Assembly: GCA_017478725.1 (NCBI GenBank) | Contig: JAFVDD010000037.1 | Coordinates: 1-34,750, forward strand | Length of the DNA stretch: 34,750 nucleotides | Source of the DNA: Paludibacteraceae bacterium | GTDB lineage: Bacteria; Bacteroidota; Bacteroidia; Bacteroidales; Paludibacteraceae | Direction of reading: 5' to 3' | In this document: one piece after another, positions 90-33,968 of the stretch | How the letters are laid out: each line of letters starts with the position of its first letter | How positions within the stretch are numbered: the stretch's first letter is position 1 | Notes under the pieces: generated by a model | Database searches by the model: none | The model's input: the letters and a program-made list of their open reading frames with translations, nothing else | Told to the model about the DNA's origin: nothing | Translations under genes and position numbers: made by a program

Positions 90-364
90 AAAAAGAATAA
101 TATAAATAAGCTCGGAATAATCGAATTTATCAAGTGTAGAATTTTTAGGGAACCTGTTTAATTGAGAATTGAGAATTGAGAATTGAGAATTAACTCAATA
201 CCAAGACCCACTCTCTTACAGTTCTTGTACTACACTAATTGTTTCAATCTTTCAAAGATAGTTTCTTTCGGTTTGGCGCAAAAAAATTAGGTCCTCGTAG
301 GAGAATCTGAATTTTAGTGTCCGCGCCTGCGGTAGAAAATCGAAACTCACTTGTTTCTCAAAAG
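90..364 (-). other. 16S rRNA leader (pre-rRNA 5' external spacer)
   Basis: This lies between the predicted rRNA promoter (371-402, minus strand) and the mature 16S start. It is AT-rich and has no convincing reading frame. It contains a 7-bp tandem repeat at 161-191. On the minus strand, TATCTTTGAAAGA near 249-261 resembles a boxA-type antitermination element, but that is only a resemblance. The 69-codon open frame on the minus strand at 252-461 overlaps the promoter and leader and is treated as non-coding. Confidence 0.65.
161..191. repeat. 7-bp tandem repeat in the rRNA leader (ATTGAGA x4)
   Basis: Four perfect copies of ATTGAGA (161-188) are followed by ATT. The repeat lies inside the transcribed 16S leader. 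It belongs to the loose 7-bp ATTGnnn class also seen at 8753, 14172, 15735 and 18934. Confidence 0.9.
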
Positions 365-370
365 CGAGTG

Positions 371-402
371 CAAAGGTACAGCTTTTTTTTGATATGACCA
401 AA
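371..402 (-). promoter_or_regulatory. rRNA operon promoter, Bacteroidetes type
   Basis: On the minus strand TTTG (399-402) is followed by a 20-base spacer and TACCTTTG (371-378). This matches the Bacteroidetes sigma-ABfr consensus (-33 TTTG, -7 TAnnTTTG). It would start transcription near 364 and give a leader of about 275 nt ahead of 16S. Confidence 0.7.
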
Positions 403-950
403 TATTTTTGCAAAAAAAATGCAACAAAAATGCATTTTCTTTGTAACTTGCTGATTTTCAATAATGAGATTTTTGGGCCATTTATGGTTCTTTTGCACCG
501 TATATGCCACGGAAACGGTATCTAACAGGATATTACACGTGCGCTATATTATATTATTAAGGAACGCGCGTGTGCGCGTTATGATAGATTAAGAGAGACA
601 GGTTGTTTCATTTTTGCGCTTAAAAAGGCGTTTATAATTGCAAAAACGGGCATTTTTCTGTTTTTTTGACACTCGCGCAAGCAGTTGTTTTTCAGTTGTT
701 TACAGGATTACGCACAGTATAAAGTCTAGGATTGATCCGAAGTGAGTCCGAAGTGAGTCCGAAGCGAGGCTGAAATGAGCCCGATACGATGGCCGAAATG
801 GGGATGAAATGGGGATGAAATAGGGCCGAGGCGGTAGTAGTTGTCTGTCATTTCAGGACGGAGGAGAGTGAAAGCGGAAACGTGGCGGGGCAAGTAAAAG
901 AGAGGGCATTTCCGAAAAAAAGTTTTTTTTGACGTAAAGATAGTAAAAAA
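403..950. other. 548-bp intergenic region between divergent rRNA and ompA-like promoters
   Basis: I see no supported gene here. Notable contents are a perfect 7-bp inverted repeat AACGCGC-GTGT-GCGCGTT at 563-580, T-rich stretches near 653-670 and 922-930, and the 11-bp degenerate repeat at 737-834. The rest is AT-rich and unassigned. Confidence 0.6.
737..834. repeat. 11-bp degenerate tandem repeat, about nine units
   Basis: Consecutive units are CCGAAGTGAGT twice, CCGAAGCGAGG, CTGAAATGAGC, a 12-bp CCGATACGATGG, CCGAAATGGGG, ATGAAATGGGG, ATGAAATAGGG and a partial CCGAGGCGG. The period is 11 bp with one 12-bp unit. Shifted by one base, TCCGAAGTGAG resembles units of the 11-bp array at 24934-25043 (TCGGAAGTGCT). 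Confidence 0.9.
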
Positions 951-982
951 TTTGCATATTCAAAAAAAATGTACTAACTTTG
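951..982 (+). promoter_or_regulatory. Promoter of the OmpA/TPR lipoprotein gene
   Basis: TTTG (951-954), 20 bases, then TAACTTTG (975-982) match the Bacteroidetes -33/-7 consensus. The expected start near 989 leaves a 5' UTR of roughly 105 nt that carries a near-perfect direct repeat (984-1026). Confidence 0.75.
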
Positions 983-983
983 C

Positions 984-1026
984 AGCGAAATTGTGCAAAT
1001 AGTAATAAGCGAGATTGTGCAAACAG
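984..1026 (+). repeat. 19-bp direct repeat in the OmpA-like gene leader
   Basis: Two 19-base copies at 984-1002 and 1008-1026 agree at 17 of 19 positions; both contain ATTGTGCAAA. They straddle the predicted transcription start and early leader, so they could be a tandem binding site or a chance duplication. Confidence 0.75.
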
Positions 1027-1095
1027 GGATAAAAGAAAGAAATCCCCTCCACAAGTCTGACAACAGAAAACAAAACTAAACTATAATTTACGCGT

Positions 1096-2781: not shown

Positions 2782-2807
2782 GCTGAAATCTATCGTAATT
2801 CAACGCA

Positions 2808-3044
2808 ATGTCCGTACTTTTTCCAAAAGTACAGAAACCCCGTGAGTGGGACTACCGTCCCATCTATTACGACAAGGACAAGGAGGCGCGCAAGGATAAA
2901 AAACTTGCGCGTCTTCATCACGGTTCGTTCCGTGAGGAGCATGAGAAGAACATGAGCGAGTACCAACGTCGTAAGAAATCACGTCTGGGTTTCCTGATAG
3001 CAGTATTGCTAATGCTGTTGTTGTTTGTGTGGGTGCTCTCGTAA
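2808..3044 (+). CDS. Small single-pass membrane protein upstream of mutL
   Basis: This is a 78-residue protein of unknown function. The first 55 residues are strongly charged (KDKEARKDKK, REEHEKN, YQRRKKSR). A hydrophobic segment at about 59-77 (LGFLIAVLLMLLLFVWVLS) ends the protein, as in a tail-anchored protein with the basic N-terminus likely cytoplasmic. It lies 26 bp after the OmpA-like gene and about 30 bp before mutL. I believe similar short proteins occur beside mutL in other Bacteroidales, but I have not checked this. The composition, clean ATG start and conserved-looking tail make it a real gene rather than a chance frame. Confidence 0.75.
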   Translation: MSVLFPKVQKPREWDYRPIYYDKDKEARKDKKLARLHHGSFREEHEKNMSEYQRRKKSRLGFLIAVLLMLLLFVWVLS

Positions 3045-7734: not shown

Positions 7735-8751
7735 ATGGTAATAGCCATCGTCGGCGCTTCCGGCGCCGTAGGTCAAGAACTGTTGAAGGTTTTAGACCAA
7801 CGCAACTTTCCTATCTCTACGCTGCGACTGTTCGGGTCGCAGCGTTCGGAGGGGAAAAAGTATATGTTCCGGGGCTGCGAATACACCGTAGAACGGCTGG
7901 AACATAACGACGCTTTCAAGGGCGTCGATATTGCTTTTGTTTCTGCGGGCGCGAGCGTATCACGCGAGTACGCGGAGACAATCACCAAACACGGGGCAGT
8001 GATGATTGACAACTCTTCCGCTTTTCGCATGGATGAAGATGTCCCGTTGGTAGTACCGGAAGTGAATGCTTCCGATGCCCTCAACCACCCGCGCAACATA
8101 ATTGCCAATCCCAATTGCACCACTATCCAGATGGTAGTGACCCTGCAGGCGATTGAGCAACTGAGCCACATCCGTCGTGTACACGTAGCTACCTATCAGG
8201 CCGCTTCCGGCGCCGGAGCACAAGCCATGGCGGAGCTGGAGAACCAATACCGCCAACTCATCAACGGCGAGAAACCGACCGCTGAGAAATTCCCTTATCA
8301 GTTAGCATACAACCTCATCCCCCAGGTGGATGTCTTTACCGAATCCGGCTACACCAAGGAGGAGATGAAGATGTACAACGAGACCCGCAAAATCATGCAC
8401 TCAGATATCCGTGTGAGTGCCACTTGCGTGCGTGTGCCTTCGCTTAGGGCACACAGCGAGAGTATCTGGCTGGAAACCGAGCGCCCTGTTTCGGTCGCGG
8501 AAGCCAAAGAAGCTTTCGCAAAGGCCAAGGGCTGCGTGCTAATGGATGAACCTGACGACAAGAAATATCCGATGCCGCTGTTCCTCAGCGGCAAGGACGA
8601 AGTATATATAGGCCGCGTACGTGCAGACCTCGCCGATGAGAACGGACTGAGTTTCTGGTGCGTAGGCGATCAGATCCGCAAAGGCGCCGCACTCAACGCC
8701 GTACAAACAGCGGAGTTTTTAATGGCGAAGGGCGAAAGGGCGAAAGGCTAA
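7735..8751 (+). CDS. asd: Aspartate-semialdehyde dehydrogenase
   Basis: Asd reduces aspartyl phosphate to aspartate semialdehyde with NADPH, the branch point to lysine/diaminopimelate, threonine and methionine. The nucleotide-binding [11 protein letters not shown] is at residues 7-17, the nucleophile is Cys128 in NPNCTTIQ, and the acid/base residue is His240 in [11 protein letters not shown]. The product is 338 residues. The last eight or so (MAKGERAKG) are encoded by an 8-bp repeat (8721-8750) that continues over the stop codon, so this tail looks repeat-derived rather than catalytic. The next gene starts 6 bp later. Confidence 0.96.
8721..8750. repeat. 8-bp repeat (AAnGGCGA family) at the 3' end of asd
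   Basis: Units AATGGCGA, AGGGCGA, AAGGGCGA and AAGGCTAA run through the last codons and stop of asd. The same unit occurs inside the U32 gene (9634-9670) and, on the minus strand, inside the SDR gene (14651-14684). Confidence 0.8.
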
Positions 8752-8752
8752 C

Positions 8753-8773
8753 GATTAATGACCAATGACCAAC
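8753..8773. repeat. 7-bp repeat over the U32 gene start codon
   Basis: Units GATTAAT, GACCAAT and GACCAAC run without a break over the ATG at 8758. On the other strand they read ATTAATC, ATTGGTC and GTTGGTC, the same 7-bp class as at 15735-15765. Confidence 0.75.
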
Positions 8774-10059
8774 AACAAATAGAGATCATGGCTCCTGTGG
8801 GGTCTTGGGAATCGCTGGCAGCGGCTATCAATGCCGGTGCTACGAGCGTTTATTTCGGCATTGAACATCTGAACATGCGCGCACGCAGTTCTGTCAATTT
8901 CACGACGGAGGATCTGCATAAGATTGTTGCACTTTGCCGTGAGGCGGAGGTGGCGGACGGGCATGGCGGCAAACGGAAAGGCGTGAAGACCTATCTGACA
9001 TTGAACACAGTGATGTATCCTGAGGATCTGCCACTGATGCGTGAGATAGTGAATCATGCACAGGCAGCCGGCATAGATGCTATTATCGCCAGCGATGTAG
9101 CTGTGATGCAATACGCAGTCAAACAGGGCGTAGAGGTACATCTATCCACCCAACTGAATATCGCCAACACGGAAGCATTAAAATTCTATGCGCAGTTTGC
9201 AGACGTAGTAGTGCTGGCGCGCGAACTGAACATGACGCAAGTAGCTGCCATCCATCGTGACATAGAGGAGCAGCAGATCCGTGGTCCGAAAGGCGAATTA
9301 CTCCGCATTGAGATGTTCTGCCACGGCGCATTATGTATGGCTGTCAGCGGCAAATGCTACCTGAGTCTGAACAATTACGGACTCAGTGCCAATCGCGGAG
9401 CGTGCGTGCAGATATGCCGCAGAGGCTACACCGTAAAAGACAAGTCATCCGATTTGGAACTTGATATTGACAACCAGTATATCATGTCGCCCAAGGACCT
9501 CAAGACCATTCATTTTCTGAACAAGATGCTGGATGCAGGTGTCCGGGTACTGAAGATTGAGGGTCGTGCGCGTGGTGCGGAGTATGTGGATACAGTGGTA
9601 CGCTGCTATCGCGAAGCAGTGGAGGCATATTATAATGGCGAATGGACGAATGGCGAAAAGGCGAATGGCATTGAGGCAAAGATAGAGAACTGGAACGAAC
9701 GTCTGAGCCGTGTGTTCAACCGTGGTTTCTGGGACGGTTACTATCAGGGACAGAGACTCGGAGAATGGACTCATGAGTATGGCAACAAGGCTACACGCAA
9801 GAAAGTGTATGCTGCCAAATGTACGAATTTCTTCAAGAAACTGAATGTTGCAGAGTTTGTAGTAGAAGCCGTGGAGAGTATCGATGAAGGTCAGACACTG
9901 CTGATTACGGGCGAGACCACCGGTGCCTATGAGTGCAAGGCGGAAGGGATGCGTGACGCGGATGGCAAACCTGCCAAACAAGTGAAGCAAGGCGAAGTAT
10001 TCTCCCTCAAAACGGATGTAGCAGTCCGCCGCGGCGACAAGATGTTTCTGTGGGAGTAA
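8758..10059 (+). CDS. Peptidase U32-family protein (TrhP/RlhA-like RNA hydroxylation family)
   Basis: U32 proteins are annotated as peptidases, but studied bacterial members (TrhP, RlhA) take part in RNA hydroxylation. This 433-residue protein starts with IEIMAPVGSWESLAAAINAG and carries the family pattern HGALCMAVSGKCYLS followed by NRGACVQICRRGY, whose cysteines fit the cluster-binding set. The N-terminal residues TNDQQ are encoded by a 7-bp repeat that also includes the start codon. At residues about 293-305 an in-frame 8-bp repeat encodes NGEWTNGEKANGI, probably a surface-loop insertion. It is 6 bp downstream of asd. The exact RNA target is not determined. Confidence 0.88.
   Translation: MTNDQQQIEIMAPVGSWESLAAAINAGATSVYFGIEHLNMRARSSVNFTTEDLHKIVALCREAEVADGHGGKRKGVKTYLTLNTVMYPEDLPLMREIVNHAQAAGIDAIIASDVAVMQYAVKQGVEVHLSTQLNIANTEALKFYAQFADVVVLARELNMTQVAAIHRDIEEQQIRGPKGELLRIEMFCHGALCMAVSGKCYLSLNNYGLSANRGACVQICRRGYTVKDKSSDLELDIDNQYIMSPKDLKTIHFLNKMLDAGVRVLKIEGRARGAEYVDTVVRCYREAVEAYYNGEWTNGEKANGIEAKIENWNERLSRVFNRGFWDGYYQGQRLGEWTHEYGNKATRKKVYAAKCTNFFKKLNVAEFVVEAVESIDEGQTLLITGETTGAYECKAEGMRDADGKPAKQVKQGEVFSLKTDVAVRRGDKMFLWE
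9634..9670. repeat. 8-bp repeat (AAnGGCGA family) inside the U32 gene
   Basis: AATGGCGA, ATGGACGA, ATGGCGA, AAAGGCGA and ATGGCATT follow one another in frame, giving NGEWTNGEKANGI. The unit matches the asd tail and SDR insert repeats. Confidence 0.8.
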
Positions 10060-12898: not shown

Positions 12899-12904
12899 CA
12901 TCGT

Positions 12905-12975
12905 GTTTTTCATGGTATTAGATTTAAGGTTAAGTAAAAAGATTGGGTTGTCGGGAGACAACCTTCTTTTTTTTA
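12905..12975 (+). ncRNA. Candidate small RNA, about 70 nt
   Basis: A transcript from the promoter at 12867-12898 would begin near 12905 and stop at the hairpin plus T-run at 12946-12972. It would be antisense to the final codons of the DEAD-box gene. A 35-codon frame (12912-13019) opens just after the start but crosses the terminator, so translation seems unlikely. No known RNA family is recognised. Confidence 0.4.
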
Positions 12976-14171: not shown

Positions 14172-14210
14172 AATAGTGATTGGCTATTTATGATTGTGAT
14201 TGGTTATTTT
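14172..14210. repeat. 7-bp repeat filling the helicase/SDR gap
   Basis: ATTGGCT, ATTTATG, ATTGTG, ATTGGTT and ATTTTTC follow one another, with a preceding AATAGTG. They occupy nearly the whole 35-bp gap and run over the SDR stop codon. Confidence 0.75.
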
Positions 14211-15736
14211 TCCCATCCGTCGAATATATCGGCGCCATAGGTATTGTCCTCGTCCTTATCGTGCAGCGGCGTCCATAATTGCGCAAAGAAGGGGTTTTGC
14301 TTGGCCACGCGGTCCCAATGCCATGCGCGTTCCTCCTCCTTCTCTCCTTTGTAGGGGAAAGGCATGTCATACGGGCTCCAGTGACCTCCGAGAAGAATAA
14401 GACGGCGGGAAGCCTTGAAACTTCTCCCTTCTGCATCCTGCCACATATCGTTGCCCAGATACTTGCCGCCTCTGAAAGCAGCTGCCTGCTGCAACTCAGC
14501 GTCCGAAAGACTGTCAATATCTTTCGTCTCATCATAGCCATGATTGAGCAGCACAGGCGTATCAGACGGATGGCTCAGATCCATATGTTTCCAGTCGGGT
14601 ATGGCGCGGTACGCCTCGAGTGAACCGTAATAAGCAGACACACGTTTGCGTGCCCTTTCGCCATTTATCCCTTCGCCTTGCGCCTGTTTGATCCACCACT
14701 GCGTACCATGTTCGTAGCTGTTGGCCATGAAGCACATAGCCGCTTTGACGCAATGGGGGACAAGCTTGGCGATATGAGTTCTGGCGGCAAATTTAATACC
14801 GAGCGGAAGAGATTTGGCTTTTGCCATCTGTGCGAAATATTCCTTAACAGGGATGTTGGCACGGAAATGCAGATAGTTCTCCAGTTTGTCGCCGTCAATA
14901 TACCACATGCCATGGAAATTGCGGGTGGTGAACCAGTTGGCATTGAATATCTTCTCAGGCTTGGGACATCCGATAGCGTTCAGAAGCAGGCACTCGAACT
15001 CATAATTAGAGAGGCGGTACTGCTCGCCCGAACCTATGTTGTAATAGTTGTTCCAGAACTCAGCCGGAACCTCGGGCCGGCAAACGCGCTCCAACAGCCG
15101 CCCGCTATCCTCCACGGTAGCCCACTCCAGCACACCGCGGATAGGTACATGGAACATGATAGGGTCATAGTTCTTGAGAATAGCGGGATAGAGAATACCC
15201 GACTGCCGGAGGCTGACCCAGGTCTTGATGCCGGAGTCGGTGATGATACGTTCGGCGGCGGCTTTGGTCAGACCGTAATGGTCGTAAGCCGACACACAAA
15301 TCGGGTCACCGGCTCTGCCCCAATGGAGCGGCTCACGACGGTCACCCATTTGGGCAACCGAGCCGATATAGACCACTTTAGGCTGTTTATCCTCCGGCTG
15401 CGCCAATACGGCACGGGTGATATACTCTGCTGCGGAGATATTAGTGCGCAAGGTGGCTTTGGGACGGTAATCCGCCTGCGGCGATACCATGCCGCCTACA
15501 TGGAGCACGATATCGGCGCCCGTCACGCCGCGGAGCACATCGTCGTAGCGGGTGAGATCACCCCAGATGATGTGTAAGGACGAATGGTTAGAGGCTAAAG
15601 GATTGAGAAGTTTTTTGTTCTTCTCACTCGGACGGGCAAGAATACGCAGGCTGTAGCGGTCAGGATATTTGAGGATTTCCTGCATGCCTGCAAAACCCAT
15701 GGTGCCGGTAGCACCGGTAAGGAAGACAGTAGTCAT
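14204..15736 (-). CDS. NAD-dependent epimerase/dehydratase (extended SDR) with C-terminal extension
   Basis: The N-terminal two thirds are an extended short-chain dehydrogenase: TGATGTMGFAGMQ binds NAD(P), GSVAQMGD supplies the Ser region and YGLTK the catalytic Tyr/Lys pair. At 510 residues it exceeds the usual 300-350 by a C-terminal domain (about 365-510) rich in Trp, His and Tyr, for example LLGGHWSPYDMPFPYKGE, which I do not recognise. An 8-bp repeat at residues about 351-362 (QGEGINGERAR) marks the junction between the halves. It is flanked by 7-bp repeats at both ends. Substrate unknown. Confidence 0.8.
   Translation of the reverse strand: MTTVFLTGATGTMGFAGMQEILKYPDRYSLRILARPSEKNKKLLNPLASNHSSLHIIWGDLTRYDDVLRGVTGADIVLHVGGMVSPQADYRPKATLRTNISAAEYITRAVLAQPEDKQPKVVYIGSVAQMGDRREPLHWGRAGDPICVSAYDHYGLTKAAAERIITDSGIKTWVSLRQSGILYPAILKNYDPIMFHVPIRGVLEWATVEDSGRLLERVCRPEVPAEFWNNYYNIGSGEQYRLSNYEFECLLLNAIGCPKPEKIFNANWFTTRNFHGMWYIDGDKLENYLHFRANIPVKEYFAQMAKAKSLPLGIKFAARTHIAKLVPHCVKAAMCFMANSYEHGTQWWIKQAQGEGINGERARKRVSAYYGSLEAYRAIPDWKHMDLSHPSDTPVLLNHGYDETKDIDSLSDAELQQAAAFRGGKYLGNDMWQDAEGRSFKASRRLILLGGHWSPYDMPFPYKGEKEEERAWHWDRVAKQNPFFAQLWTPLHDKDEDNTYGADIFDGWEK
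14651..14684. repeat. 8-bp repeat (AAnGGCGA family) inside the SDR gene
   Basis: On the minus strand the segment contains AAGGCGA, AGGGATA, AATGGCGA and AAGGGCAC, in frame. It encodes part of the QGEGINGERAR stretch between the SDR domain and the C-terminal extension. Confidence 0.65.
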
Positions 15737-15768
15737 TGGATATTGGTCATTGGTTATTGATTATTCTT
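15735..15768. repeat. 7-bp ATTGGTN repeat filling the SDR/antiporter gap
   Basis: ATTGGAT, ATTGGTC, ATTGGTT, ATTGATT and ATTCTTT are contiguous. The 24-bp gap is entirely repeat, which also covers part of the SDR start codon and the antiporter stop codon. Confidence 0.85.
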
Positions 15769-24255: not shown

Positions 24256-24299
24256 GAAAAATGGAAAATGAATAAATTGTAAATGACCAAATTGTAAAT
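24256..24299. repeat. 7/8-bp repeat in the udk leader
   Basis: Units GAAAAAT, GGAAAAT, GAATAAAT, TGTAAAT, GACCAAAT and TGTAAAT are contiguous. On the opposite strand they read ATTTnnn, an AT-richer version of the 7-bp class. They make up nearly the full predicted 5' UTR of udk. Confidence 0.7.
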
Positions 24300-24305
24300 G
24301 TCTTT

Positions 24306-24933: not shown

Positions 24934-25043
24934 TCGGGAGCGCTTCGGGAGCGTTTCACCGGCGCTTAGGCAGTGTTTCACAACCGCCTCGGAAGTGCTT
25001 CAGGAGCGCATCGGGAGCGCATCGGGTGAATATCGTATCATAC
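24934..25043. repeat. 11-bp degenerate tandem repeat, ten units
   Basis: Ten consecutive 11-bp units begin TCGGGAGCGCT and TCGGGAGCGTT and include TCGGAAGTGCT, TCAGGAGCGCA and TCGGGAGCGCA. Each unit begins with T, most with TC. The better-kept units resemble those of 737-834 (pattern TCSGRAGYG). The array fills most of the udk-to-chromate-transporter gap. Confidence 0.92.
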
Positions 25044-25050
25044 CCCACCC

Positions 25051-25094
25051 TATATATATACTTTGTATATATATCCCGTGATTTTAGAAATCAC
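25051..25094. promoter_or_regulatory. Two inverted repeats before the first chromate transporter
   Basis: An AT palindrome with arms ATATATATA and TATATATAT around CTTTG (about 25052-25074) is followed by a perfect hairpin GTGATTT-TAG-AAATCAC (25078-25094). They end 20 bp before the GTG start. Function unknown; a regulatory site or RNA structure is possible. Confidence 0.5.
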
Positions 25095-25114
25095 ACCGTT
25101 TAGTTTGCTATTCA

Positions 25115-25651
25115 GTGTTCTTCCAACTCTTCTGGACATATCTCAAAATCGGCACCTTCACCCTCGGTGGAGGCTATGCCATGTTGCCGCTTATCCAGCG
25201 CGAAGTGGTGGATCGCAAACACTGGATTGACGAAGAGGAGTTTATGAACATGATTGCCCTGGCACAGGCGGCTCCGGGACTCATTGCCGTCAATTCAGCC
25301 ATCTTCATCGGCTGGCGCATAGGCGGCTGGTGGGGCGTTATGGGAGCCGTATTAGGTGCCGTACTGCCCTCATTCCTGATTATTCTGGCCATCGCTATGG
25401 TTTTCAGCGAATGGAAAGAACTGCCTTGGGTGGAAGCCGCTTTCAAGGGAATACGGCCCGCTGTGGTGGCACTCATCGCAGCACCCCTCGTCAAAATGGC
25501 TAAAGCCGCCAAGATCAGTTGGCTCACTGCACTCATACCCATAGCTGCAGCCCTGCTCATCTGGCTCGGGCATGTCAATCCCGTATGGGTCATTCTGGCT
25601 ACTATTCTGCTGACCTGCCTGACGGTCTCTATCACCCGAAATCACAAATAA
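25115..25651 (+). CDS. Chromate transporter family protein, first half-size subunit
   Basis: This is a 178-residue CHR-family membrane protein with FKIGTFTLGGGYAMLPLI-like N-terminus (here LKIGTFTLGGGYAMLPLIQ) and IALAQAAPGLIAVNSAIFIG, the duplicated CHR motif. Half-size members usually occur as adjacent pairs that work together, and a second copy follows at 25781. The start is GTG at 25115; no in-frame ATG lies upstream before a stop at 25085. The stop codon overlaps the first unit of a 33-bp repeat. Many CHR proteins are not shown to move chromate, so the substrate is open. Confidence 0.85.
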   Translation: MFFQLFWTYLKIGTFTLGGGYAMLPLIQREVVDRKHWIDEEEFMNMIALAQAAPGLIAVNSAIFIGWRIGGWWGVMGAVLGAVLPSFLIILAIAMVFSEWKELPWVEAAFKGIRPAVVALIAAPLVKMAKAAKISWLTALIPIAAALLIWLGHVNPVWVILATILLTCLTVSITRNHK

Positions 25652-25770
25652 ATCGTACATCGTACATCTGTCCTTCGTAAATAATTCGTACATCGTACAT
25701 CTGTCCTTCGTAAATAAACCGTACATCGTACATCTGTCCTTCGTAAATAAACCATACATCTATCCTTCGT
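25646..25770. repeat. 33-bp tandem repeat between the two chromate transporter genes
   Basis: Three 33-bp units (25646-25678, 25679-25711, 25712-25744) differ at only a few bases. A fourth (25745-25770) is 26 bp and lacks one copy of an internal 7-bp duplication (GTACATC). The array starts over the stop codon of the first gene and ends 10 bp before the start of the second. 33 is three times 11. Confidence 0.95.
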
Positions 25771-25780: not shown

Positions 25781-26347
25781 ATGATTTACTTGCAACTGTT
25801 TCTCTCGTTCTTCAAGATAGGTCTCTTCGGCTTCGGCGGAGGCTTGGCTATCCTGTCGCTCATCCAGATGGAGGTGGAGCAGTACGGATGGATGACCCAG
25901 CAGGAGTTTGTGGATATAGTGGCTGTCAGCCAGGTCACACCAGGACCCATCGGCATCAACTGCGCCACCTACGTCGGATATACGGCTACCGGATCGGTTT
26001 GGGGAAGCCTCCTCACCACCTTTGCTATCATCCTGCCGAGCCTGATTATTATGCTGAGCATCTGCCGTGCCTATTTCTGGCTGAGCAACCGCTTTCACGA
26101 CAACCCCTATTTCTCCCAAACGCTCAGAATGCTGCGGTTCACGGTCATCGGACTCATCGCTTCAGCGGCACTGATGCTGATCAAACCCGCCAATTTTATA
26201 GACACTACCAGCTGGATCATCTTTGCTGCCGTAGCATTCTTCACTGTTCTGCCGCAGCTATATAAAAATAAGGTGACCGATTTGTTCAGTCACCCTATTC
26301 TCTTGATTGTGCTTGCAGGCGTTGCAGGGTATTTCATCTACCGTTGA
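25781..26347 (+). CDS. Chromate transporter family protein, second half-size subunit
   Basis: This 188-residue partner of the upstream gene carries LFLSFFKIGLFGFGGGLAILSLIQ and VSQVTPGPIGINCATYVGY, the second CHR-type domain. Hydrophobic segments at about 80-100, 120-140, 147-165 and 170-188 fit a membrane protein. The final codons FIYR and the stop are themselves the first unit of an 11-bp repeat array. The 129-bp gap from the first subunit is mostly the 33-bp repeat. Confidence 0.85.
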   Translation: MIYLQLFLSFFKIGLFGFGGGLAILSLIQMEVEQYGWMTQQEFVDIVAVSQVTPGPIGINCATYVGYTATGSVWGSLLTTFAIILPSLIIMLSICRAYFWLSNRFHDNPYFSQTLRMLRFTVIGLIASAALMLIKPANFIDTTSWIIFAAVAFFTVLPQLYKNKVTDLFSHPILLIVLAGVAGYFIYR

Positions 26348-26425
26348 CCAACCCTTGATCTACTGTTGATCTACTGTTGCTCAACTATTCATCTATTATT
26401 CTGTTCATCTACCGTTGATTAACCT
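26333..26425. repeat. 11-bp repeat bridging two convergent stop codons
   Basis: TTCATCTACCG, TTGACCAACCC, TTGATCTACTG twice, TTGCTCAACTA, TTCATCTATTA, a 5-bp partial, TTCATCTACCG again, and TTGATTAACCT. It covers the end of the second chromate transporter gene, the whole intergenic gap, and the stop codon of the convergent helicase gene. Confidence 0.92.
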
Positions 26426-28749
26426 TCTCTCTCCAGTTTAGCATGGGTCAGGAGCAGTGTTTTTGTGCCCTGTTTGTCAAAATTTATCTCTATCTTGTCG
26501 TTCTCCGTCACCTCATCGCGATAAACGCGCTGCACCGTTCCCTCGCCGAACACACGGTGACTCACTCGGTCGCCGCTCTTCCATATAGCCGAAGCCACGC
26601 CGCTTGTCGCACCGCTGACAGGCTTCGCAGCAGGAGTTCCGGAACTCTGGAATTCTGGCACTCCGCTACTCCGGTACTCTGGTATTCTGGAATTCTGGTA
26701 CTCGGCTCTTCTGTCGCTAAACGCCCATCTGGATTGTATAGCAGGGCGCTCATAACTCATAGCGGAGGAACGCTCTTGTACCACATCCAGATACTGTCTG
26801 TCAATGTCTTTCAGAAACCGGCTCGGCGAGTTGAAAGCCATCTGACCGTTACGGAACCGCTGACGCGCATAACTCAGATAACACCTCTCCATCGCCCGGG
26901 TGACAGCTACGTACAGCAACCGTCTCTCTTCTTCTATCTCGCTTGGCTTGACGCAGAACTGGCTGGGAAACAGATTCTCCTCCATGCCTGCAATAAACAC
27001 CACAGGAAACTCCAAACCTTTGGCTGCGTGTACGGTCATCAGTGTCACACGTTCTGTCGTATCCGCAAGGTTATCGTCCTGGTCGGTTTGCAGACTCACT
27101 TCGCTCAGGAAATCCGTTATCGGCGTATAATCAATACCTTCTTCCTGCCGCTGCGCCACAAACTCCCGGATAGCGTTCAGCAACTCCTGCACGTTCTGCG
27201 CGCGGTCGATGCCTTCGGCAGTCGTGTCCATGGCCAGAGCAGTCTGCACGCCTGATACACGCAGTGTCTGGTCGGCAAAGTTATATGCGTCCGTTTCCTC
27301 GCTCAGTTGCTGCAACTGAGCCATCAGGTCGGCAAAAGCCCGTAGCCTCTTCATCGTCGCAGCAGCCACATCCAAGCCGGTATCTTCCGGCTTACGCATC
27401 ACTTCCAGATAAGGCAAGTGGTTCTCAATGGCATGGGCAGCCACTTTTTTCATGGTTGTCTCGCCGATACCTCGGCCCGGAAAACCCACAATCCGCAGCA
27501 ATGCTTCGTTATCCCGCGGATTGACGGCCAGACGGAAATAACCCAGCACATCTTTGATCTCTTTGCGCTGGTAGAACGACGTGCCGCCGTAGATGCGATA
27601 AGGGATATTTCTCTTCCTGAGTTCGCCCTCAAAGGCACGGCTCTGCGCGTTCGTCCTGTATAAAACGGCTATGTCGTCATAACTGCTGCTACGTGTCGTC
27701 TTGTGAATACCCGCTATCATCTCTGCTACGCCGTTTGCCTCCGCACGGTCATCCATATAGGCGTACAAACTGAGAGGCTTGCCTGCCTCTTTCTCCGAGA
27801 AAACAGTCTTTTCTATTTGGTGTACATTCTTGTGAATCAGCGAATTGGCTGCATTCACTATATTCTGCGTCGAGCGGTAGTTACGCTCCAGCTTGAACAA
27901 GCGCGCATTAGGATACTGCTGCCGGAAATTAAGAATATTGCGTATGTCTGCGCCGCGGAACGAATAGATACTCTGCGCATCGTCGCCTACCACACAGATG
28001 TTCTGCTGCGGCTCCGCCAGGCGGCTCACAAGGCAATACTGCACATAGTTGGTGTCCTGGTATTCATCTACCAGCACATATCGGAACATCTGCTGCAACT
28101 GCTCCCTGACATCCGCGTGTTCGTCCATTAGTTTCAGCATATTCAGCAGCAAATCGTCAAAATCCATCGCATTGGCTGCCTTCAGGCGTGCCTGATAGAG
28201 CTCATAGACAGTGGTCAGTTCATACATCCGCGCCTCACGGTCTGCTTGTTGCAACTCACGGTTCATGCCGTACTGCGCAGGGGAGATCAGGTTGTTTTTC
28301 GCCATAGAGATACGCCCGAGCACCACCGCCGGTTTATACACTTTCTCATCCAGACCGCGTTCCTTGCAGATAGCCTTAATCACTGATTTACTGTCGGTTG
28401 TATCGTAGATTGTAAAATCCCTTGTGAAGCCCAGCCTCTCCGCATCACGTCGCAGCAGTTTGGCGCAGATACTATGGAAGGTGCCCATCCATAAATACCG
28501 GTAGTCTGACGGCTGACGGCTGGCGGCTGAAAGCTGCATGATTCGCTCTTTCATCTCACGCGCGGCTTTGTTGGTGAACGTCAAAGCCAGTATATTCCTC
28601 GCCGGAACACCTTGTTCCAGCAGATACGCAATCCTGTAGGTCAGCACACGCGTCTTCCCGGAGCCGGCGCCGGCTACTATCAGCGACGGACCTTCCGTAC
28701 ACATCACCGCCTCGCGTTGGGTGTCATTCAGTTCCTCTAAATAATTCAT
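26419..28749 (-). CDS. ATP-dependent 3'-5' DNA helicase, UvrD/PcrA type
   Basis: This 776-residue superfamily 1A helicase acts in excision repair, mismatch repair or replication-fork clearing. Motifs are complete: LNDTQREAV (Q), GAGSGKT (27-33), LTFTNKAAREMKERI, VDEYQDTN, VVGDDAQSIYSFRGA, LERNYRSTQNI, MTVHAAKGLEFPVVF and YVAVTRAMERC. The C-terminal domain SGDRVSHRVFGEGTVQ is the RNAP-binding region typical of PcrA. Two in-frame repeat insertions are odd: residues about 71-84 (7-bp units) and about 683-706 (8-bp units, EYQNSRIPEYRSSGVPEFQ), both in variable linkers. The stop lies in an 11-bp repeat. Confidence 0.95.
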   Translation of the reverse strand: MNYLEELNDTQREAVMCTEGPSLIVAGAGSGKTRVLTYRIAYLLEQGVPARNILALTFTNKAAREMKERIMQLSAASRQPSDYRYLWMGTFHSICAKLLRRDAERLGFTRDFTIYDTTDSKSVIKAICKERGLDEKVYKPAVVLGRISMAKNNLISPAQYGMNRELQQADREARMYELTTVYELYQARLKAANAMDFDDLLLNMLKLMDEHADVREQLQQMFRYVLVDEYQDTNYVQYCLVSRLAEPQQNICVVGDDAQSIYSFRGADIRNILNFRQQYPNARLFKLERNYRSTQNIVNAANSLIHKNVHQIEKTVFSEKEAGKPLSLYAYMDDRAEANGVAEMIAGIHKTTRSSSYDDIAVLYRTNAQSRAFEGELRKRNIPYRIYGGTSFYQRKEIKDVLGYFRLAVNPRDNEALLRIVGFPGRGIGETTMKKVAAHAIENHLPYLEVMRKPEDTGLDVAAATMKRLRAFADLMAQLQQLSEETDAYNFADQTLRVSGVQTALAMDTTAEGIDRAQNVQELLNAIREFVAQRQEEGIDYTPITDFLSEVSLQTDQDDNLADTTERVTLMTVHAAKGLEFPVVFIAGMEENLFPSQFCVKPSEIEEERRLLYVAVTRAMERCYLSYARQRFRNGQMAFNSPSRFLKDIDRQYLDVVQERSSAMSYERPAIQSRWAFSDRRAEYQNSRIPEYRSSGVPEFQSSGTPAAKPVSGATSGVASAIWKSGDRVSHRVFGEGTVQRVYRDEVTENDKIEINFDKQGTKTLLLTHAKLEREG
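26631..26702. repeat. 8-bp repeat (CYGGWAYT) inside the UvrD/PcrA gene
   Basis: Nine contiguous 8-bp units, for example CCGGAACT, CTGGAATT, CCGGTACT and CTGGTATT, total exactly 72 bp, or 24 codons, so the frame is kept. The same unit family forms the psd-deoC spacer (30600-30647). Confidence 0.93.
28506..28540. repeat. 7-bp repeat (CTGAnnG) inside the UvrD/PcrA gene
   Basis: CTGACGG twice, CTGGCGG, CTGAAAG and CTGCATG encode QLSAASRQPSD on the minus strand, between helicase motif Ia and the FHS segment. The deoC-NfnAB spacer has the related CTGAATG/CTGAAAG units. Confidence 0.8.
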
Positions 28750-29923: not shown

Positions 29924-29927
29924 GATA

Positions 29928-30599
29928 ATGAAAAGATTTCGTATTCACCGAGAAGGCCGCAATCTGATTTGCGGAACGGTTCTCCTCTTGTTTATCCTGA
30001 ATGTTGCACTCTTCGCACTGCATCCCGCAGAGTGGATTCTGGCACTCTCATTGATAGTTACCGCACTCCTGCTGGTGTTCGTCACTTATTTCTTCCGCAA
30101 TCCTGTGCGTGTACTGGAAATCGATGACCCGAATTTCCTTATTGCGCCGGCGGACGGACGGGTAGTGGTGATTGAACCCACGGAAGAGAACGAGTATTTC
30201 CACGAGAAGAAACTGCAGGTTTCCATCTTCATGTCGCCCTTCAATGTACACGCCAACTGGTATCCCATTGAGGGCACTGTTCTTGTGTCAGAGCACCAGA
30301 AAGGCCGCCACAAAGGTGCATGGCTGCCCAAATCGAGTACGGAGAACGAACGCTCGCTGGTGGTGATCGAGACGCCTTCCAAAGTGCAGATTGCCATCCG
30401 TCAGATAGCCGGAGCTATGGCGCGCCGCATCGTTACCTACGCCAAACCCGGACACCAGGCGCACCGCAACACCCATCTGGGATTCATCAAACTGGGCAGC
30501 CGCGTGGATATGTATCTGCCGCTGGACACCGAGATGTTCGTCGCAGTAGGAGAAGCCGTACGCGGCAACGAAACAATCATAGGCCGTCTGCAAAAATAA
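29928..30599 (+). CDS. psd: Phosphatidylserine decarboxylase, short (archaeal-type) form
   Basis: Psd makes phosphatidylethanolamine from phosphatidylserine at the inner membrane and self-cleaves to form a pyruvoyl group. The 223-residue product has two N-terminal hydrophobic segments (about 14-30, 37-55), FFRNPVR, APADGRVV, FMSPFNVHANWYP, and the cleavage motif FIKLGSRVDMYLP with Ser191 as pyruvoyl source. The partner gene pssA, often adjacent in Bacteroidetes, is not in this window. An 8-bp repeat starts immediately after the stop codon. Confidence 0.93.
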   Translation: MKRFRIHREGRNLICGTVLLLFILNVALFALHPAEWILALSLIVTALLLVFVTYFFRNPVRVLEIDDPNFLIAPADGRVVVIEPTEENEYFHEKKLQVSIFMSPFNVHANWYPIEGTVLVSEHQKGRHKGAWLPKSSTENERSLVVIETPSKVQIAIRQIAGAMARRIVTYAKPGHQAHRNTHLGFIKLGSRVDMYLPLDTEMFVAVGEAVRGNETIIGRLQK

Positions 30600-30647
30600 C
30601 CGGAACCCCGGAATTCCGGAAATCCGGTAATCCAGAAATCCAGTAAT
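30600..30647. repeat. 8-bp repeat (CYGGWAYT family) between psd and deoC
   Basis: CCGGAACC, CCGGAATT, CCGGAAAT, CCGGTAAT, CCAGAAAT and CCAGTAAT follow without a gap, beginning at the base after the psd stop. The unit family matches the one inside the helicase gene. Confidence 0.93.
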
Positions 30648-30662: not shown

Positions 30663-31541
30663 ATGAACTTTGAAGAACTATTCGCGCAGTATCCCTGCCC
30701 GTTTACCGATGAGCAAGTACAGGCTCAAGTAGCTGAAATCGAAGCAAAGCATTTTGCCGAGAATAACCATGTTGAGGTGTGGAAACAGTGTCTCCACCAG
30801 ATTGACTACACCACCCTTTCCGCCGACGACACCATCGCCAAAGTGGAGAAAATGGCACAGGCTGTCAACTATTTTGAGAAAGATTTTCCGGGCATCCCTA
30901 ACGTAGCCGCTATCTGTGTTTATCCGGCTATGGCACAATACGTGCGCGCAACGCTCGATGATCCGAAATTCAATATTGCCTGCTGCTGCGCCGGTTTCCC
31001 TGCCGCACAGACTTTCCCGGAGATCAAGGTAGCCGAGACTGCACTCGCCCTCAAAGCCGGTGCTACCGAAGTGGATATCGTTCTCTCGGTCGGCAAGTTC
31101 CTCGAGGGCCGTTACCAGGACTGCTTCGACGAGATTGCAGAGATCAAGGCCGTGTGCGGCACACACCACCTCAAAGTCATTCTCGAAACAGGACTTCTGA
31201 AAACAGCGGAGAACATCTGGAAAGCCTCTATCCTTGCCATGGCGGCTGGCTGCGATTTCATCAAGACTTCTACCGGCAAGATATCCGTCAACGCAACACC
31301 GGAAGCTACTTTTGTCATGTGCAACGCTATCAAGGTTTGGCGTGAGCAGACAGGCGTCAAGATGGGCTACAAACCCGCCGGAGGCGTTTCCACAACGGAA
31401 GAGGCTGTGCAGCACTATACACTCGTCAAGGACATCCTCGGCGAAGAGTGGCTCAACAACGAGTACTTCCGCTTCGGCGCATCACGTCTGGCTAACAACC
31501 TCCTTTCCTCCATCGTAGGCAAAGAAACCAAGTATTTTTAA
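30663..31541 (+). CDS. deoC: Deoxyribose-phosphate aldolase
   Basis: DeoC cleaves 2-deoxyribose 5-phosphate to acetaldehyde and glyceraldehyde 3-phosphate in nucleoside catabolism. The class I TIM-barrel active site is clear: Lys201 in FIKTSTGKIS forms the Schiff base, with Lys171 in LKVILETG and Asp138 in EVDIVLSVGK. At 292 residues it belongs to the longer DeoC form common in Bacteroidales. The spacer to psd is repeat, so cotranscription is plausible but untested. Confidence 0.96.
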   Translation: MNFEELFAQYPCPFTDEQVQAQVAEIEAKHFAENNHVEVWKQCLHQIDYTTLSADDTIAKVEKMAQAVNYFEKDFPGIPNVAAICVYPAMAQYVRATLDDPKFNIACCCAGFPAAQTFPEIKVAETALALKAGATEVDIVLSVGKFLEGRYQDCFDEIAEIKAVCGTHHLKVILETGLLKTAENIWKASILAMAAGCDFIKTSTGKISVNATPEATFVMCNAIKVWREQTGVKMGYKPAGGVSTTEEAVQHYTLVKDILGEEWLNNEYFRFGASRLANNLLSSIVGKETKYF

Positions 31542-31577
31542 AAGTCATCAGCAAGGTCAGACCTGCATCAGGAAAAG

Positions 31578-31605
31578 CTGAATGCTGAATGCTGAAAGCT
31601 GAATG
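31578..31605. repeat. 7-bp repeat (CTGAAWG) between deoC and the NfnAB fusion
   Basis: CTGAATG twice, CTGAAAG and CTGAATG are contiguous, ending 11 bp before the next start codon. Related units are found inside the helicase gene at 28506-28540. Confidence 0.85.
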
Positions 31606-31616
31606 CCCCCCAATTT

Positions 31617-33968
31617 ATGAATAAAATCATTTCCAAGCGATTTTTCTCACCCAATGTAGCGGAGCTGATAGTCGAGGCTCCGCTCATTGCGCGTAGCCGC
31701 CGTGCCGGACATTTCGTCATCATCCGAGTGGACGGCCGTTCCGAACGTGTGCCCCTCACTATCGCCGGTGCCGACAAAGAGAAGGGCACCATCACATTAG
31801 TGGTACAACAGATAGGTGTCTCCACCCACAAACTGCTTGCGCTTAATCCCGGCGATTTCATCCACGATGTAGTGGGTCCGCTGGGCAAAGCCACACGTAT
31901 CGAAAACTACGGCACAGTCGTCTGCGCCTGCGGAGGCGTAGGTGCTGCGCCTATGCTGCCTATCGCCGAAGCCTTGAAGAAAGCCGGCAACCGCGTCATC
32001 ACGGTGCTGGCGGCGCGTAACAAAGACCTGATTATCCTCAAGGACGAACTTGCCCGGTGGTCAGACGAACTGATGGTCATGACCGACGACGGATCGATGG
32101 GCAAGCAGGGCGTAGTCACCGTCGGCGTGGAGGAAGTGATCAACCGCGAGCACGTGGACAAATGTATCACCATCGGTCCGGCTATCATGATGAAGTTCGT
32201 CGCGCTGACCACCGCCAAATACAATATCCCTACCGAGGCATCCCTCAACACCATCATGGTGGACGGCACAGGCATGTGCGGCGCCTGCCGCGTGACAGTG
32301 GAAGGCAAAACCCGCTTCGTCTGTGTCGATGGACCCGAGTTTGATGCGCACGGCGTGGACTGGGACGAGATGCTCAGCCGCATGAAATCCTACAAAACAG
32401 AGGAGACAGAGGCCCTGCAGCAATACCAAATCAGACTAGCGAGACAGAATCGAGAGAGTATCGAATCGGAAGAGTGTCGGGATAAAACCGAGATCAATTC
32501 AGATGCAAACATAGCTCTCACACCGGAGCCTTTCACAGGCACTGCGAAAGACCGTGTGGCTATCCCGCGTGTCGAAATGCCCGAACTGCGTCCCGAAGTG
32601 CGCGTCAAATCGTTGCATGAAGAGGTGAACCAAGGCCTCACCTTTGAGCAAGCCGTTACCGAATCCCACCGCTGCCTCAGCTGCAAAAACCCCACTTGCG
32701 TACAAGGCTGCCCGGTCAACATCAACATCCCGGGCTTCATCAAACAGTTGGAGCAAGGCGATATCCTCGGCGCCGCGGAGATTATCAAGCAGAGTTCGTC
32801 CCTGCCTGCCGTCTGCGGACGAGTATGCCCGCAGGAGAAACAGTGCGAATCGCAATGTATCCACCTCAAGATGAAGCACCAGCCTGTAGCCATCGGCTAC
32901 CTTGAGCGCTTTGTGGCGGATTATGCGAACAGTCTGTCAGCGAAGCGGTCTGTCAGTGAAACGGTCTGTCAGCAAAGCGGTCTGTCAGTGAAACGGTCTA
33001 AAATCGCAGTAGTCGGCTCCGGTCCTGCCGGACTTACTTTCTCCGGCGACATGGCCAAATACGGCTATGAGGTGCATGTGTTCGAAGCGCTGCACGAGAT
33101 AGGCGGCGTGCTCAAATACGGTATTCCCGAGTTCCGTCTGCCGAACGCTATCGTGGACAAAGAGATCGACGGTCTGCGTGCGTTGGGCGTACAGTTCCAT
33201 ACAGATACCATCATCGGCAAGACGATTACCGTCAAGCAGCTGGAGGAACAGGGCTTCAAGGGTATCTTTGTCGGTTCGGGTGCCGGTCTGCCGCGCTTCA
33301 TGAACATCCCCGGCGAGAACCTCAACGGCGTGCTCTCGTGCAATGAGTACCTCACGCGCGTCAATCTCATGGATGCCTCCAATCCGGCTACCGACACGCC
33401 GCTCCTTTACGGAAAGAACGTAGCCGTCATCGGCGGAGGCAATACAGCCATGGACGCCGTGCGTACCGCCAAACGACTGGGTGCTGAGCGGGCGATGATC
33501 GTCTATCGCCGCAGCGAGGAAGAGATGCCGGCGCGTGTAGAGGAAGTCAAGCATGCCAAACAGGAAGGTATTGAGTTCCTCACGCTCCATAATCCTATTG
33601 AATATCACGCGGACGCGAACGGGCGCGTGTGCGAGGCGGTGCTGCAGGTGATGGAGCTCGGCGAACCCGACGAATCAGGACGCCGCAGTCCGGTGCCCGT
33701 AGAGGGACAGACGATCACTATCCCCGTGGATCTCGTCATCGTAGCAGTCGGCGTGAGTCCCAACCCGTTGATTCCCTCCTCTGTGGAAGGACTGGAAATC
33801 AGCCGCAAAGGCACGATCGTCGTCAACGAGCGGATGCAGTCAGCCATCCCTACTCTCTTCGCCGGAGGTGACATCGTCCGCGGAGGCGCCACCGTCATTC
33901 TTGCCATGTCCGACGGTCGCAAAGCCGCCGCTGCCATGCACGCTACCCTTAATGGAACAGAGGAATAA
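31617..33968 (+). CDS. NfnAB-type fusion: ferredoxin-NADP reductase-like subunit plus glutamate synthase small-subunit-like subunit
   Basis: This 783-residue flavoprotein joins two subunits usually separate in clostridia. Residues 1 to about 250 are a DHOD-B/SudB-like FAD and NAD domain (CACGGVGAAPMLPIAEAL) ending in a [2Fe-2S] site (CGACR and later Cys, about 219-238). Residues about 353-414 hold two [4Fe-4S] sets (CLSCKNPTCVQGCP; CGRVCPQEKQCESQC), then GSGPAGLTFSGDMA starts the FAD/NADPH half with GGGNTAMDAVR. Such fusions are annotated as bifunctional glutamate synthase or electron-bifurcating transhydrogenase; which applies is not shown. A 16-bp repeat encodes residues about 439-460 in the linker. 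Confidence 0.9.
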   Translation: MNKIISKRFFSPNVAELIVEAPLIARSRRAGHFVIIRVDGRSERVPLTIAGADKEKGTITLVVQQIGVSTHKLLALNPGDFIHDVVGPLGKATRIENYGTVVCACGGVGAAPMLPIAEALKKAGNRVITVLAARNKDLIILKDELARWSDELMVMTDDGSMGKQGVVTVGVEEVINREHVDKCITIGPAIMMKFVALTTAKYNIPTEASLNTIMVDGTGMCGACRVTVEGKTRFVCVDGPEFDAHGVDWDEMLSRMKSYKTEETEALQQYQIRLARQNRESIESEECRDKTEINSDANIALTPEPFTGTAKDRVAIPRVEMPELRPEVRVKSLHEEVNQGLTFEQAVTESHRCLSCKNPTCVQGCPVNINIPGFIKQLEQGDILGAAEIIKQSSSLPAVCGRVCPQEKQCESQCIHLKMKHQPVAIGYLERFVADYANSLSAKRSVSETVCQQSGLSVKRSKIAVVGSGPAGLTFSGDMAKYGYEVHVFEALHEIGGVLKYGIPEFRLPNAIVDKEIDGLRALGVQFHTDTIIGKTITVKQLEEQGFKGIFVGSGAGLPRFMNIPGENLNGVLSCNEYLTRVNLMDASNPATDTPLLYGKNVAVIGGGNTAMDAVRTAKRLGAERAMIVYRRSEEEMPARVEEVKHAKQEGIEFLTLHNPIEYHADANGRVCEAVLQVMELGEPDESGRRSPVPVEGQTITIPVDLVIVAVGVSPNPLIPSSVEGLEISRKGTIVVNERMQSAIPTLFAGGDIVRGGATVILAMSDGRKAAAAMHATLNGTEE
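32932..32995. repeat. 16-bp repeat inside the NfnAB fusion linker
   Basis: Four 16-bp units: GTCTGTCAGCGAAGCG, GTCTGTCAGTGAAACG, GTCTGTCAGCAAAGCG and GTCTGTCAGTGAAACG. The second and fourth are identical. 64 bp is not a multiple of three, so the peptide is not perfectly periodic. It sits between the iron-sulfur region and the FAD-binding GSGPAG. Confidence 0.95.

Follow-up and report, generated by a model that had tools for sequence, protein, structure and literature searches.

Short tandem arrays dispersed over bacterial genomes have been described in several guises, and here we compare these with the repeat tracts of a 34,750-nucleotide stretch of Paludibacteraceae DNA (contig JAFVDD010000037.1, assembly GCA_017478725.1; hereafter the window). 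The tract families look copied around, as they are scattered over loci that have nothing else in common and as one and the same site differs from species to species. BrickBuilt, a miniature inverted-repeat transposable element (MITE) of Porphyromonas gingivalis with 19 copies in ATCC 33277, has a degenerate tandem body of 23-bp units with a constant leader and tail, one or both of which are missing from some copies; it has small inverted ends, is always intergenic and is described from one species (PMC4596501). Heptamer arrays, termed short tandemly repeated repetitive (STRR) sequences or long simple sequence repeats (LSSRs), occur in cyanobacteria, Xanthomonas (GGGAATC) and Beggiatoaceae (TAACTGA; PMC4679880, PMC4692102), and also in some Bacteroidetes, including Paludibacter propionicigenes (PMC4679880). 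In Coxiella and Leptospira, intervening sequences (IVSs) of the 23S rRNA carry an S23p/IVP open reading frame (ORF), which is preceded in Coxiella by three tandem heptamers (PMC4990558). Rickettsia palindromic elements (RPEs), ~150-bp palindromes, form small in-frame repeats in genes (PMC10969869). Both the origin of heptamer arrays and the role of the S23p/IVP protein are described as unsettled (PMC4692102, PMC4679880, PMC4990558).

A sequence-only reading of the window had proposed one window-wide repeat system that fitted no named class. The tracts form several families instead; because their periods, arms and distribution differ, a single common system is rejected, and the classes above come near to them. 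Besides array-only kinds without constant arms (CTGANNN heptamers; TCGTCATG, CCGGAATT and GACTAGCT octamers), we distinguish framed kinds. X consists of two direct repeats with 11-bp units between them, sometimes extended to X-A-X-B-X. Y and Z each have a constant arm of their own, other than those of X, beside an 11-mer array, and B is a hairpin of ~84 bp within heptamer arrays. BrickBuilt belongs to the same order and is likewise a dispersed tandem array with constant arms (here X frames, Y in 7 copies and Z in 8). The present kinds differ from it in their units of 7, 8, 9, 11, 15 and 16 bp, in having some copies in genes, and in a genus-wide range over which units change between species. 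Terminal inverted repeats, a MITE feature, are present in B, whereas the ends of X frames are direct repeats. With STRRs and LSSRs the tracts share heptamers at many unrelated loci, few unit families and lineage specificity. IVSs have the same protein family and inverted ends; here, in contrast, the sites are ordinary intergenic ones, with arrays on both sides and gene-less relatives (B). As with RPEs, there are in-frame insertions in ORFs (the UvrD loop), but the in-gene tracts here are short arrays of 24-72 bp and not ~150-bp palindromes. Repetitive extragenic palindromes with their transposases (REP/RAYT) and integron or dif-module cassettes are short dispersed repeats with same-orientation sites between unlike interiors. 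X-A-X-B-X trains resemble these, but we found no Y1_Tnp match and no recombinase linked to X.

Results

Short tandem tracts are frequent and share units

The window is contig 55 of a 60-contig metagenome-assembled genome (MAG) of 2,156,747 bases, 84% complete. Our own-genome sample comprised the window and 40 further stretches (825 kb, 38% of the bases). Tracts were called by an ungapped scan (periods 5-40, non-overlapping, score cuts of at least 14 or at least 12). Labels are L for locus, G for genome (the own genome is G000) and C for contig. Duplicate rows L166, L169, L173 and L175 (genomes of L034, L033, L036 and L035) were removed, as was L180 (genome of L039) in some counts. We observed 14 tracts in the window at the higher cut and 18 at the lower, compared to 0 and a mean of 0.33 in 12 dinucleotide shuffles; Tandem Repeats Finder gave 40 rows at a score of at least 30. 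Periods at the higher cut were 7 (4 tracts), 8 (2), 11 (3) and 15, 22, 24, 32 and 33 (1 each). The 825-kb sample contained 204 tracts, most commonly with units of 7 (76), 11 (43) or 8 bp (30), and a 435-kb part of it contained 109, compared to 0 in three full shuffles of that part. This excess of tandem 5-11-bp units, heptamers being commonest, is a further likeness to STRRs and LSSRs. These data confirm that the tracts are real.

Tract density ranged from 1.2 to 4.7 per 10 kb across seven species of the genus. The gene names used for the window (uvrD, udk, chrA, psd, deoC, gltD, U32) are putative assignments based on the translations. At uvrD-region loci, density was 2.11 in nearer relatives compared to 0.90 in other Bacteroidales, whose loci (L052-L110) had 22-bp units in 21 of 97 tracts and 11-bp units in 2 of 97, whereas the genus of the window has 11-bp units. 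The closest UvrD relatives (82-83% identical) are rumen or gut MAGs labelled Paludibacteraceae or Bacteroidales.

We compared units between loci after thinning tracts to one per 3 kb, with random words from tract-free non-coding positions as the null. Heptamers agreed at ≤1 mismatch in 141 of 1275 pairs (null mean 30.8, maximum 51, 200 draws), octamers at ≤1 mismatch in 42 of 300 (mean 2.4, maximum 10) and 11-mers at ≤2 mismatches in 43 of 703 (mean 3.4, maximum 10, 100 draws). Units are common to unrelated loci, in several families with different periods and anatomies. Because sharing lies far above the random-word null, either copying or a unit-favouring factor is needed, as the sequence-only reading had argued; similarity at the level of composition, which it had set against its own idea, was not what we found. 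Across seven genomes, sharing was higher within than between genomes (7-mers 0.131 and 0.085, 8-mers 0.271 and 0.146, 11-mers 0.164 and 0.050), an excess reached by 1, 10 and 0 of 2000 label permutations, respectively.

The TCGTCATG octamer array occurred in 26 of 101 genomes, with 105 overlapping matches in the own genome, 29 in G030 and 22 in G079 (control 0 in these). The different 11-mer classes of the own genome have a TCGG core in common. By eye, its heptamers follow the consensus RRYTGAN, which would include a rotation of TAACTGA. Despite this, membership in the TAACTGA family is rejected, as TAACTGA, CCCCAGT and CCCCAAT, the last two of which we take to be cyanobacterial STRR units, gave 0 tandem pairs at ≤1 mismatch in 825 kb. 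Thirteen tracts, chiefly CTGACGG heptamers and TCGTCATG octamers, are packed into ~8 kb at L142:9173-16828 (G000:C1).

Arrays bracket a four-helix-bundle gene family

At L143:11470-11995 (contig C5), a heptamer array and its ACAAAG end are followed by a 122-aa ORF, a B arm and an inverted heptamer array. What looks like a truncated B element here is the end of a longer gene-bearing unit. The ORF matched PF05635 (23S rRNA-intervening sequence protein; 85.8 bits) and TIGR02436 (100.4 bits), and it sits between protein-coding ORFs, not in 23S rRNA. With its B arm, its heptamers and an array ending in ACAAAG, this B-type copy is a candidate for the gene-bearing parent that is another MITE feature, its protein having a putative mobilising role.

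B elements have inverted ends (ACAAAG..CTTTGT), and two copies folded at z scores of -4.6 and -4.3. We counted 13 in the own genome by eye: 11 complete ones flanked by heptamer arrays left and right, and two truncated ones that retain an array next to the end that is left. B half-sites were present in 13 of 101 genomes (G074 21, G059 16, own 16, G034 7, the rest 1-3). Single B matches may be chance, since a reversed control gave single matches in 5 genomes. There was no Rfam match at the elements in the six sources scanned.

The own genome contains four genes of this type. One exceeds the Pfam cut-off, and the other three, which are weaker, exceed those of TIGR02436 and TIGR04258. All four adjoin arrays, three of them on both sides: 7-mers at C5, TCGTCATG-family 8-mers at C29 and arrays at C13. 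The fourth (C22) has a 9-mer-family tract on one side and the contig end on the other. A relative from G035 (51% identity) is enclosed by inverted heptamer arrays built on a different unit.

We found 24 plasmid records with the gene (tblastn), from Cyanobacteriota, Bacteroidota, Spirochaetota, Bacillota and Chloroflexota. Arrays lay within 150 bp of the gene on both sides in 23 of 24 (21/22 plus 2/2), for the most part as inverted heptamers, and on at least one side in 24 of 24. Control coding sequences (CDS) from four of the 24 plasmids had arrays on the left in 10, on the right in 4 and on both sides in 2 of 119. Where 9-mer sharing across the gene and its orientation were tallied (22 of the 24 records), 9-mers were shared in inverted orientation in 18/22 and directly in 4/22, compared to 12/117 and 15/117 control CDS. 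Not all of these loci are independent, as some have a common layout (three from Planktothrix; L373, L374 and L378). In viral contigs, 31 pattern matches to four-helix genes yielded 0 confirmed genes. That matching arrays enclose this one gene family on plasmids from five phyla connects the question of array origin with that of protein role. In the open-access literature we found nothing besides the Coxiella remark that connects heptamer arrays to four-helix-bundle genes, and no description of such elements in Paludibacteraceae.

Inverted matching arrays are unlike the result of insertion into one direct array, and we therefore read them as element ends. These data suggest that the little-understood four-helix gene family may be what spreads seven-base arrays. 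Alternatively, the genes would settle in pre-existing arrays as a safe place and neither make nor move them, which we consider rather unlikely. Most arrays are without such a gene, and where octamers flank the gene the two arrays run in the same direction, as expected if it had inserted into a single array; the C29 and C13 genes could be insertions of this kind. The inverted 9-mer sharing at plasmid loci, however, does not come from one direct array, and control stretches of four plasmids are poor in heptamer-period arrays (0, 0, 2 and 2 per 35 kb).

Array-flanked four-helix genes on plasmids are often in or beside defence operons (L365, L366, L369, L375, L382, L389, L390), at positions that include those between cas2 and cas1, between HsdS- and HsdR-like genes, behind DISARM drmD and ahead of methylase genes; at L372 and L377 they stand beside XisH/XisI. 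Two 247-aa ORFs (L358:1021-1764 and L359:1021-1764) combine a four-helix part with a TIGR04258 suffix domain and, at the C-terminus, a zinc stretch resembling that of topoisomerases; both are flanked by direct octamer arrays.

The X frame is kept while its units change

Self-comparison of the own-genome sample revealed many tracts to be portions of dispersed elements. The two strongest objects, the X frame and the link to four-helix-bundle genes, both lie outside the window: contig 55 has no X place and no PF05635 match. With ≤2 mismatches allowed, the own genome has X at 32 places, at some of them singly, whereas a reversed control gave 0. Of 178 genomes of the genus, 95 carry the frame TTAAGATT-N80..110-ATTDTTAAGATT, which ranges from 0 to 21 per genome; the control gave 0. 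The own genome gave 8 frame matches, and 7 are counted because one is on a contig that is probably mis-binned. This contig, C35 (G000:C35, L339; 4.4 kb), shares a 921-bp stretch of 100% identity with G059:C9. Among 150 listed frames, lengths were 102-104 in 21, 112-116 in 105, 123-126 in 21 and elsewhere in 3.

We took one interior per genome, which 27 of 30 loci yielded. The best lag was 11 in 26 of 27 interiors, with a pooled match of 0.480 at lag 11, 0.396 at lag 22 and 0.226-0.276 at other lags; the lag-11 match was 0.483 in the 24 interiors left after near-duplicates were removed. Units are TCGGG-type in the own genome, CCGTGGTTAAA in G035, TCGGTATCTTA in G027 and CTAAACACCCT in G051, where five X copies are nearly identical. 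Some interiors are common to several species (three near-identical pairs among the 27), and units are thus not strictly species-private. The fetched loci, partly chosen for X, contained 70 X pairs and four three-X trains with unlike interiors (reversed pattern 0), and two related trains differ by one 11-bp unit. The X frame represents satellite-like behaviour in bacteria, in which frame and period are kept across a genus while units turn over. A second dispersed 11-mer family, CTCTGCGCAANGTCAGCGCAANGTCTGCT, occurs at L197, L200 and L210 and also as an interior between X sites in G035.

Target duplication is an unlikely source of the X copies because, judged by eye, 5 of the 7 own elements have a left type unlike the right one. 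The idea that X is a word common to the whole order was also rejected: 83 of 198 genomes matched at ≤1 mismatch, mostly once or twice, and the reversed control was similar. In the order-wide draw, the two other genera of the family gave 0 matches at ≤1 mismatch.

Class Y has 7 copies (the window and 6 in the own sample) and class Z has 8 (the window and 7 in the own sample, including a weak one at E 0.043). The window copy of Z is inside an ORF, as is, by eye, the copy at L152; 5 of the other 6 copies follow a stop codon (by eye).

Arrays might instead be protein-binding platforms, with units made alike by selection and not by copying, a reading that we regard as improbable. Phasing at 11 bp would put every unit on the same DNA face, as in ParR/parC-type centromeres. 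The lag-11 periodicity of X interiors and the common TCGG core are consistent with such platforms. However, arrays are not kept at orthologous sites, neutral concerted evolution also keeps a period, and a ladder of lengths in 11-bp steps follows from the unit size in any case.

Orthologous sites do not keep their tracts

For 31 tracts, 153 comparisons with orthologous sites gave 0 with the same unit, 36 with another tract (at a cut of 12, which is low and may count codon-level repeats) and 117 with none. Ordinary conservation in relatives, which the sequence-only reading had named as speaking against its idea, was therefore not observed. Gap comparison was limited to loci with all four anchors, and the order udk-chrA1-chrA2-uvrD was kept in 17 relatives. 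The udk-chrA1 gap contained a tract in 6/17, with a period of 7, 8, 11 or 22 bp; ten of the other 11 gaps are 1-30 bp long and one is 132 bp with a Y-like arm (by eye). Tracts were present in 2/17 chrA1-chrA2 gaps and 0/17 chrA2-uvrD gaps.

The N-terminal UvrD loop is short in 50 of 53 other rows, which include some genomes twice; two rows (one genome) have another insert and one has a small extension. Listed length differences at the loop are multiples of 3. In L034/L117, a different small palindromic insert, CTCTCCCCGACCCTCCCCTCAAGGGAGGGAGGAAGGTCG, occupies the loop position of the heptamer tract of the window. The C-terminal UvrD linker has unlike repeats in different species, of which the 9-bp ones may be simple codon repeats; the linker of L042, which has the same unit as the window, is not among the 153 comparisons. 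A further caution is that what reads as a linker of a conserved enzyme in such genomes can be a recent repeat insertion.

Independent replication slippage at each locus would make copying unnecessary, and we hold it to be quite improbable. Slippage has been proposed for heptamers, the top long-repeat class in most genomes of one survey (PMC4679880, PMC4692102), and gap lengths here vary by whole units, as do the two X trains that are one 11-bp unit apart. Against it stand unit sharing far above random intergenic words, constant arms beside arrays and matching inverted arrays on both sides of one gene family. Seed copies in relatives (units ≤16 bp, gaps ≤400 bp) were at chance level, 2/123 compared to 2.3 expected, which is weak evidence because the relatives are distant (nearest ~83% UvrD identity).

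We think it very improbable that the arrays are post-transcriptional or translational control sites, as suggested for TAACTGA repeats. By eye, several tracts and X copies lie directly at start codons. Other tracts, however, lie at stop codons or in ORFs: by a crude ORF proxy, 92 of the 204 are non-coding, 25 at edges and 87 within ORFs, non-coding positions being 8.6% by the same proxy. The lack of TAACTGA tandem pairs in 825 kb is a further point against this reading. Finally, an assembly or binning artefact is extremely improbable: nearly all genus relatives are MAGs by title and C35 is probably mis-binned, but like kinds occur in many separately assembled genomes and within conserved genes, and plasmid records have arrays at four-helix genes.

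Discussion

Copying to new loci as such we consider probable, and likelier than a role of four-helix-bundle elements in the 7-9-bp arrays, which we put forward tentatively. We incline slightly towards a mixed population of copied array-bearing elements in which the 7-9-bp kinds go with four-helix-bundle elements. The tracts would be the visible part of small dispersed repeats made of, or bearing, short arrays, and the framed kinds would keep their constant arms (X-11mer-X, Y, Z, and B between inverted heptamer arrays). Arrays or elements would be copied to new loci. The carrier of the 7-9-bp kinds would be an element, related to rRNA intervening sequences, that ends in arrays and contains a four-helix-bundle gene, with solo arrays and hairpin B as its presumed gene-less derivatives. 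After copying, arrays would change by whole units and be homogenised, so that the period is kept while the unit drifts, and would then be lost. Copies would persist only in gaps and permissive protein loops. The arrays and the small elements bearing them are best read as non-autonomous.

A more specific form of this proposal seems doubtful to us: four-helix IVP/S23p proteins would be what generates or moves the heptamer (and 8-9-bp) arrays, a complete element would have the order inverted array-gene-array, solo arrays and B would be its gene-less offspring, and the X frame would be a separate second system. If true, the four-helix reading would give one origin to cyanobacterial STRRs and the heptamers of the window, and a function to the protein family.

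Several observations weigh against copying by such elements. No movement was seen and no transposase is tied to any family. The Y1 transposase profile (PF01797) had 0 matches in the own genome (84% complete) and matched 5 of 14 control genomes. Flanking direct repeats of at least 11 bp occurred at 2 of 109 tracts, one of them X itself, compared to 6 of 545 random places, and the X frame folded no better than shuffles on either strand (z -0.8 and -1.0). Octamer sharing between the own genome and G030 (0.317) was at least that within the own genome (0.296), which speaks against a simple species-private picture. The distance of the relatives in the seed-copy comparison also counts here. For the four-helix link, arrays stand by chance on at least one side of 217 of 590 own ORFs and on both sides of 49, the octamer-flanked genes C29 and C13 have direct and not inverted arrays, and phage records with the gene had arrays on both sides in 0/2. 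In addition, the whole own genome has 4 four-helix-type genes compared to 204 tracts in 38% of it, and nearly all arrays thus stand alone.

Two other sources of repeats were rejected. For a RAYT origin, there was no Y1 match (PF01797) in the own genome, which is 84% complete. As to repeats made by reverse transcriptase (RT), two RVT_1 ORFs match generic RT models, and we saw no tie between them and arrays. The two ORFs (L214:7883-9388 and L152:4078-5208) have a motif that we take to be of the diversity-generating retroelement type.

Features of the window

The tracts of the window lie, as the sequence-only reading had claimed, in intergenic gaps, over start and stop codons and in frame within genes.

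160-191: heptamer array AATTGAG, 4.6 copies; intergenic, upstream of a 16S rRNA gene (by eye) cut by the contig end
736-825: 11-bp arrays TCCGAAGTGAG then GAAATGGGGAT, CCGA/TCGG 11-mer family; intergenic
984-1032: 24-bp tandem pair directly after promoter-like sequence
8721-8772: AAGGGCGA and AATGACC units, spanning the stop (8751) of one ORF and the start (8758) of the next
9634-9669, plus strand: AATGGCGA units inside ORF 8758-10059 (product presumably U32 peptidase-like)
14173-14209: 20-bp pair of ATTGGYTATTT type at a gene junction, score 12
15732-15765: ATTGGTN heptamers, spanning the start codon (15736) and stop codon (15761) of two minus-strand ORFs
24259-24300: 15-bp tract AAATTGTAAATGACC; family also at L148, L158, L213 and L227 by eye
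24934-25098: class Y element, 11-mer array TCGGGAGCGC and constant arm ATATCGTATCATACCC.ACC.TATATA...CCCGTGATTTTAGAAA; udk-chrA1 gap
25646-25760: 33-bp tract, 3.5 copies, in the chrA1-chrA2 gap; CGTACAT/CGTAAAT heptamer-family pieces by eye
26333-26401: 11-bp tract ACTGTTGATCT in the chrA2-uvrD gap
26637-26703, minus strand: 8-bp tract CCGGAATT/CCAGAATT within the C-terminal linker of UvrD, in frame; L042 has this unit family (by eye), other species have other repeats
28506-28530, minus strand: 7-bp tract CTGACGG, in frame in the UvrD N-terminal loop
30600-30647: 8-bp tract CCGGAATT between ORFs 29928-30599 and 30663-31541
31574-31606: 7-bp tract GCTGAAT between ORFs 30663-31541 and 31617-33968
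32426-32509, plus strand: class Z element, arm AAATCAGACTGGCGAGACA..ATCGAGAGAGAATCG and short 11-mer array, inside ORF 31617-33968
32928-32999, plus strand: 16/32-bp tract CGGTCTGTCAGTGAAA inside ORF 31617-33968; unit also at L141:7811 and, weaker, at L148:2728 (E 0.041)

In-ORF tracts thus fall twice in uvrD, twice in ORF 31617-33968 and once in ORF 8758-10059, and the tracts at 8721-8772 and 15732-15765 cross gene ends. The units that the sequence-only reading had named as recurring are present. The CCGGAATT-type octamer starts at 26638 and again at 30600; 11-mers of the TCSGRAG type are seen at 736 and 24934, and CTGAAWG/CTGACGG at 31574 and 28506. For two units our count of loci was lower than that of the sequence-only reading. 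ATTGGTN is present at 15735, reverse-complemented at 8757 and weaker at 14173, which by eye makes 3-4 loci and not the claimed 5-6, and AAnGGCGA has two clear loci (8721 and 9634), the third being not seen.

Outside the tracts, positions 12903-12975 match the Rfam family FopS, a paralogous Bacteroidetes small RNA family, at 76.7 bits (gathering cut-off 56), and a second FopS copy lies at L225:7528-7600.

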